From NCBI GenBank assembly GCA_002839605.1, contig PGYK01000005.1:1-64000 (forward strand): DNA of 64,000 nt, written 5' to 3'. This DNA is from Methanomicrobiales archaeon HGW-Methanomicrobiales-3 (GTDB taxonomy: Archaea; Halobacteriota; Methanomicrobia; Methanomicrobiales; Methanospirillaceae). The position numbers were made by a program, and so were the translations under genes. Positions 9,048-61,950 of this stretch are shown here, piece after piece; the first letter of the stretch is position 1, and the number at the start of each line of letters is the position of its first letter. The notes under the pieces were generated by a model. The model was not told where the DNA came from, did no database searches, and saw nothing but the letters and a program-made list of their open reading frames with translations.

Positions 9048-9148
9048 GATCGTTTGCCTCTTTCTTGATCAGCGTTCGTTTTTCGTTTATCTTCTGCCGG
9101 TTCCTATCCATTGCGGCCACAAGATGCCGTGGGGGGTAAAGATTTTTA

Positions 9149-9271
9149 GCTCTTCGTTATTTTAAGTGGGTAAGATAAACGATGAATTCATCTGCCATTG
9201 CATTGTCTGAACCGCCGCGGGGGCGCCCCGCCTTTGGTCGGAGGAATTCATCGTAAAGGTGGGTCGGGAGC
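9149..9271 (+). repeat. 123-bp structured element, copy 1 (candidate ncRNA or MITE)
   Basis: This 123-base block recurs at 45487-45609 with the same length and strong conservation, especially GGGTA(A/C)GATAAACGATG and the two ends. The ends GCTCTT and GGGAGC can pair (four Watson-Crick and two G-U). An inner perfect 11-bp stem joins 9179-9189 to 9244-9254, and a GC hairpin (GCGGGG/CCCCGC) lies inside. No open frame is conserved. A T-rich patch just upstream could act as a promoter. The stretch 9048-9361 holds nothing else. Confidence 0.6.
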
Positions 9272-45427: not shown

Positions 45428-45486
45428 ATCCTCAAATTATTTTGTTTTTTTAGTATATCTGGATTTTTCCGGGTTCATAAAAACAG

Positions 45487-45609
45487 GCTCTTCATTATTG
45501 TAAGTGGGTACGATAAACGATGAATTCATCAGGCATGGTATTGCAGAAACCGCCGCATGAGAGCCCCTTTTTGGACCGGCAGAGTTCATCGTAACGGGGG
45601 TTTGGGAGC
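45487..45609 (+). repeat. 123-bp structured element, copy 2, with 7-bp flanking direct repeat
   Basis: Same length and ends as 9149-9271 (GCTCTTC to GGGAGC). The inner stem is kept: the 3-prime arm reads GAGTTCATCGT instead of GAATTCATCGT, changing one A-U pair to G-U without breaking it. AAAACAG lies exactly at both outer edges (45480-45486 and 45610-45616), as a target-site duplication would. The rest of 45428-45944 shows only the promoter-like AGTTAAATAT near 45911 for the next gene. Confidence 0.62.
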
Positions 45610-45944
45610 AAAACAGCCCCCATCAACCGGCTTACCGGGATTCAGGTTACCCGCACAGATCAGCAAAGAGTCAAAAAACAGCGGTAATTCATACGGGATT
45701 TACCCGCAGAAAATTACAGGATTTTAGAAGAATATCCAAGTAAAAAATCATCCCGGCATTATCTTTTTTAAGTTACGATTATCCGGCGGTCTTCGCACAA
45801 GATTTGCGGGACAGTACTTTGTCGGAGATGTCTCAGCCAGCGCCCCGGTGCCCTTCTCATGATCTCTGGAGATCCTGGTTCACCAGCCGGAAAGAAACGC
45901 GAAAGCTACCAGTTAAATATCGCCCCGCACCACGGGGTAGGTGT

Positions 45945-61605: not shown

Positions 61606-61950
61606 GCAAAAATTTCTAAAAAAAATTGAACATAACCGTCATCGCCCGCATCCTTGCACTCCTTATGGGTGCGGTAAGGCCCCAATGTCGCGCAATGGTC
61701 GGGCTGCGGGTGCGATAGTGCTCCTTAGAGTCTCCATGCGGGACCCTCAAACGGGTGATTTCCCGGGATATTTTCATGAAAAAACCGTATTGAGGCCGCC
61801 ACGGGGGCTTCCTGTCGGGGGTGGCGGCAGGCATCGCAATTAACTAACAAAGTTCTCCAAAATGCTTCCCGATTGCGTTTTTCATGGGAAACGTGCATGG
61901 AGGGGGGTTCACCAGCGTTTCTCAAAAAAAAGGTTTGCCCCACTCATCCA

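Follow-up and report, generated by a model that had tools for sequence, protein, structure and literature searches.

The element and its copies

A 187-bp repeat lies at positions 45486 to 45672 of the window, the whole 64,000-nucleotide stretch of DNA analysed here (contig PGYK01000005.1, Methanomicrobiales archaeon HGW-Methanomicrobiales-3), in the neighbourhood of a C69 peptidase gene. Its terminal inverted repeats are 26 bp long and imperfect (GGCTCTTC...GTGGGTAA), and they are flanked by an A/T-rich target duplication of 8 bp that is preserved at 7/8 positions. No open reading frame of at least 60 aa overlaps the 187 bp, in agreement with an earlier note on this DNA that reported no coding frame. 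The following features are distinguished.

45486 to 45672, + strand: predicted full ISL3-type MITE, 187 bp, delimited by end-to-end alignment of 11 copies, with ends and flanks computed
45486 to 45511, + strand: left terminal inverted repeat GGCTCTTCATTATTGTAAGTGGGTAC, 17/19 on the end motif GGCTCTTCGNTNNTNNNNGTGGGTAA
45647 to 45672, - strand: right terminal inverted repeat, reading GACTCTTTGCTGATCTGTGCGGGTAA on the - strand, 16/19 on the motif GGCTCTTCGNTNNTNNNNGTGGGTAA
45478 to 45485, + strand: left copy of the target-site duplication, TAAAAACA, read directly; 7/8 against the right copy
45673 to 45680, + strand: right copy of the target-site duplication, AAAAAACA, read directly
45548 to 45626, + strand: core two-hairpin module B, element positions 63 to 141; 78% identity to the module-B consensus
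45610 to 45616, + strand: the right-hand AAAACAG of the earlier note, internal to the element in all aligned copies and not a flank
9148 to 9271, + strand: second window copy, truncated, with the left end and about 100 bp but without the right end; the BLAST match stops at element position 124

Copy counts rest on sequence searches of genomes. The host genome holds about 11 full or partial copies, dispersed over several contigs. The earlier note had taken a 123-bp segment (45487 to 45609) for the complete element. This segment covers only the left two thirds of the 187-bp element; a search of the genome with it found eight places, and most full copies extend about 63 bp beyond it on the right, to the inverse of the left end. 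Eleven copies from five genomes (the host's own, G003, G013, G020 and G028) align with 82% mean column identity, from GGCTCTTC... to ...GAAGAGCC. All 11 share the same bounding ends, and the copies are about 72-90% identical to one another. Related elements are present in other species of the host's genus. Among the matches listed, elements with the same ends also occur in Methanosarcina, Methanothrix, Methanolinea and some bacteria, and a similar element is found in a Methanoregula record (L128). This match makes Methanoregula a likely genus for the host, whose neighbouring genes and ISL3-bearing relatives indicate a methanogenic archaeon. The search for further copies that had been recommended was productive within the genome, across the genus and beyond it.

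Ends, target duplications and empty sites

The 7/8 duplication of the window copy is weak evidence alone, as its setting is A-rich. For the family, 62 distinct elements were picked by their paired ends only, with flanks ignored, from all loci retrieved among the matches listed. In 34 of these 62 elements the two flanking 8-mers match at 7 or 8 positions; in a swapped control, with left and right flanks taken from different elements, the share is 1.6%. Such a control is important here, as the targets are A/T-rich. Flank agreement is highest at a length of exactly 8 bp, with 0.71 for the genus and 0.73 elsewhere, and lies at 0.34-0.53 for lengths of 5-7 and 9-11 bp. Exact 8-bp duplications include ATTGAAAT (L038), AAAAAAAT (L075) and TTTCATTT (L089); at a few elements, such as the host's own C12 copy, the duplication is not seen. 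The earlier note would have counted transposition as refuted if other copies lacked duplications and orthologous positions always kept the element; the duplications at other copies, and the element-free loci of a sister copy described below, leave the idea unrefuted.

Across the 39 genomes of the genus, the end motif GGCTCTTCGNTNNTNNNNGTGGGTAA was matched 58 times with at most two mismatches, in 15 genomes, and its reversed pattern not once. Unrelated bacteria, for example Opitutaceae and Desulfobacterales, also carry elements with these ISL3-type ends and 8-bp duplications, at sizes of about 170-370 bp (L118, L156, L175, L185, L190 and others), and the ISL3-type end found here is therefore very widely spread. 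Combined with the 8-bp duplication, the signature GGCTCTTCGNTNNTNNNNGTGGGTAA detects ISL3 elements together with their MITEs in archaea and bacteria alike.

A scan for the end motif covered 84,980 species genomes. Among the matches listed are two complete insertion sequences whose ends are near-perfect and whose 8-bp duplications are exact: L120 (1327 bp, with ATCTTTTC twice) and L171 (1302 bp, with ATGTTTTT twice). Their proteins match PF01610 at 7e-80 and 1e-74, respectively, and pass the cut-off of the NCBIfam ISL3 transposase model, with values of 2e-109 and 4e-102. Both contain the ISL3 DDE, helix-turn-helix and zinc-ribbon domains. In L191 the motif stands 66 bp ahead of an ISL3 transposase gene. 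An ISL3 copy within the genus, L057, starts with the same GGCTCTTC (8 bases). The genus copies L057 and L058 were rejected as partners, as their ends diverge after GGCTCTTC.

The transposase with matching ends that the earlier note called for was accordingly found in complete insertion sequences of other taxa, but not in the host. No match to PF01610 or PF14690 (ISL3 transposase and ISL3 zinc ribbon) occurs in this 98%-complete, 18-contig draft genome, nor was an ISL3 transposase with exactly this end type found in the genus, so the likely partner is modelled on those of other taxa. Absence from the draft is not proof, since insertion sequences can drop out of assemblies. Archaeal MITEs usually resemble their partners in the inverted repeats only, and some archaeal MITE-like elements are without a recognizable partner (PMC3852290). 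Because such partnerless elements have been reported, a partner in the same genome is treated here as supportive, not defining.

Sites that lack the element were sought as well. In three other species the two genes that enclose the host's C10 copy stand next to each other, separated by a short spacer that lacks the element; this sister copy therefore provides the element-free orthologous sites that had been asked for. The window element itself has no match at any retrieved orthologue of the C69 peptidase gene beside it. For this copy, no precise empty site could be placed through these orthologues, because the intergenic region is too diverged from that of relatives to align. A different element of 192 bp, which has ends of this type and is flanked by an exact AAAAAATC duplication, was observed near the peptidase-gene orthologue of species G012 (L239, 2954 to 3145).

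Module B and alternative readings

The interior of the element contains module B, a repeat of two hairpins, about 48-79 bp long (CCGCCGCGGGGGCGCCCC..GGGGGCGGCGG...GGGGGTATGGGGGCATCAGCCCCCAT), that occurs both inside and outside MITEs (L016-L037, L043-L056, L275-L286). Dozens of copies are found across the genus, with more than 100 candidate places in one species. In addition to the copy in the element, the window carries a fragment at 61790 to 61840. Module B was matched in nearly all searched species of the genus and, at the threshold used, in 0/24 genomes from the order's other genera; the Methanolinea element L125 has a similar core. It has no Rfam match. It is found in either orientation, within otherwise different MITE interiors. 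Outside copies lie between convergent genes in 13/33 cases by a simple ORF caller, a count that is not a tested enrichment. A candidate second repeat end, AGGATTTCCCATGAAA, located near module B copies and sought as an inverted pair, has no consistent partner. A hairpin repeat, CCCCGCCTCAGGGCCTCTCCGAGGCACGGCGGGGCA, was often observed just upstream of module B (L046 1382 to 1657, L056, L074, L275-L286), and the intergenic repeats around module B therefore look like mosaics of a few modules. Module B appears to be carried repeatedly by the ISL3-type MITEs of the genus. Because dozens of copies also lie outside MITEs, it could be functional cargo spread partly by them, although we consider this rather improbable; putative roles would include that of a processing, termination or protein-binding site between genes. 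This core is the sole odd point of the element and might deserve later attention.

The earlier note had described a separate 123-bp element with the ends GCTCTT and GGGAGC and a 7-bp duplication. The letters are as quoted: GCTCTT begins at 45487, GGGAGC ends at 45609, and AAAACAG stands at 45480 to 45486 and at 45610 to 45616. The alignment nevertheless refutes this reading, to which we assign practically no probability. In all full copies the proposed right border falls within the longer repeat, and the true ends are at 45486 and 45672. The two AAAACAG strings pair the left flank with internal sequence, whereas the family duplicates 8 bp. The internal string corresponds to GAAACAG in the aligned C10 copy of the host, and other copies have shorter versions of the TTAG type at this place; by coincidence, AAAACAG is also present at 45675 to 45681, right after the true end of the element. 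The stretch 9149 to 9271, cited as a second copy of equal length, does match over 123 bp with 77% identity, but represents only the left 124 bp or so of a longer element. The lengths are equal because the copy at 9148 to 9271 matches only about the first 124 bp of the element. Its left end has one mismatch to the motif GGCTCTTCGNTNNTNNNNGTGGGTAA.

Two further readings assign the repeat a function or a different unit. It could be a conserved structured or cis-regulatory RNA, multiplied or retained for its function, whose inverted ends form a long RNA stem, and the sequence is indeed foldable with paired ends and two inner hairpins. This folding is only marginally better than that of shuffled sequences (z -1.3 as DNA, -1.6 as RNA). 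The consensus fold of the 11 sequences has an unfavourable covariation term (+1.4), with two-sided change in 5/42 pairs, and no Rfam family matches. An RNA origin also leaves the exact 8-bp duplications and the empty sites unexplained, and we regard it as very unlikely. Slightly less probable still is a REP/BIME-like intergenic repeat, in which the two-hairpin core is the unit and the outer parts are incidental. Across the genus, module B does reach dozens of copies per genome, and the majority of these are not in MITEs. However, most such copies are without the ends described here, the window element is conserved end to end between its inverted ends, and 8-bp duplications flank the members of the family.

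Proposed origin and known relatives

Judged from its sequence, the window element is very probably a 187-bp non-coding ISL3-type MITE that was once inserted by an ISL3 transposase acting in trans. The broader proposal of the earlier note, that a small element without a coding frame was transposed by an enzyme from elsewhere and duplicated its target site, is supported in this form. The ends are common to ISL3 insertion sequences, the duplication is 8 bp, and the element is short, non-coding and dispersed in multiple copies. An element-free orthologous site is seen for the C10 copy, and for the window copy only absence beside an orthologous gene. An autonomous partner in the same genome, usual though not required, was not found.

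The likely mechanism is derived from ISL3 family membership and the anatomy of the element. (i) An ISL3 transposase, now lost or absent from the draft assembly, would have bound the GGCTCTTC...GTGGGTAA ends in trans. (ii) The element would have been joined to its target, an A/T-rich site cut with an 8-bp stagger. (iii) Repair would then have left the 8-bp duplication. (iv) The copies presumably diverged afterwards. The element is probably an immobile relic, because no ISL3 transposase was found in the draft genome, and the divergence among copies given above suggests that the family is probably inactive in this genome. The analysis sets right the borders of a dispersed repeat in a genus of methanogens and assigns it to a family. 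The element adds to a known kind and its mechanism is not new; the finding alone changes no view of how ISL3 MITEs operate.

The closest published counterpart is the ISMac21-associated MITE of Methanosarcina acetivorans, an ISL3-family element of 179 bp with 6 copies, IR 22 and DR 7 (PMC3852290 Table 4). By published description, it resembles the window element as an ISL3-type, non-coding element of an archaeal methanogen with very similar size, long inverted repeats and short duplications; its published duplication is 7, whereas 8 was measured here. Among the matches listed, elements of 177-179 bp with the present end motif were found in Methanosarcina. Their size matches the ISMac21 MITE, and they differ from the window element in interior sequence. 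The complete insertion sequences L120 (Euryarchaeota archaeon BM5_bin.6) and L171 (Methanosuratincola) share the 26-bp end motif with the window element and likewise have an A/T-rich duplication of 8 bp, but are about 1.3 kb long and encode a transposase of about 400 aa; the likeness claimed is that of the ends. The ISL3 transposon Tn7546 is bacterial, 3.8 kb long and carries a transposase and mercury genes, yet its inverted repeat GGGTCTTCGGA and its 8-bp A/T-rich duplication AAAATAAG (PMC9782665) are both like those of the window element.
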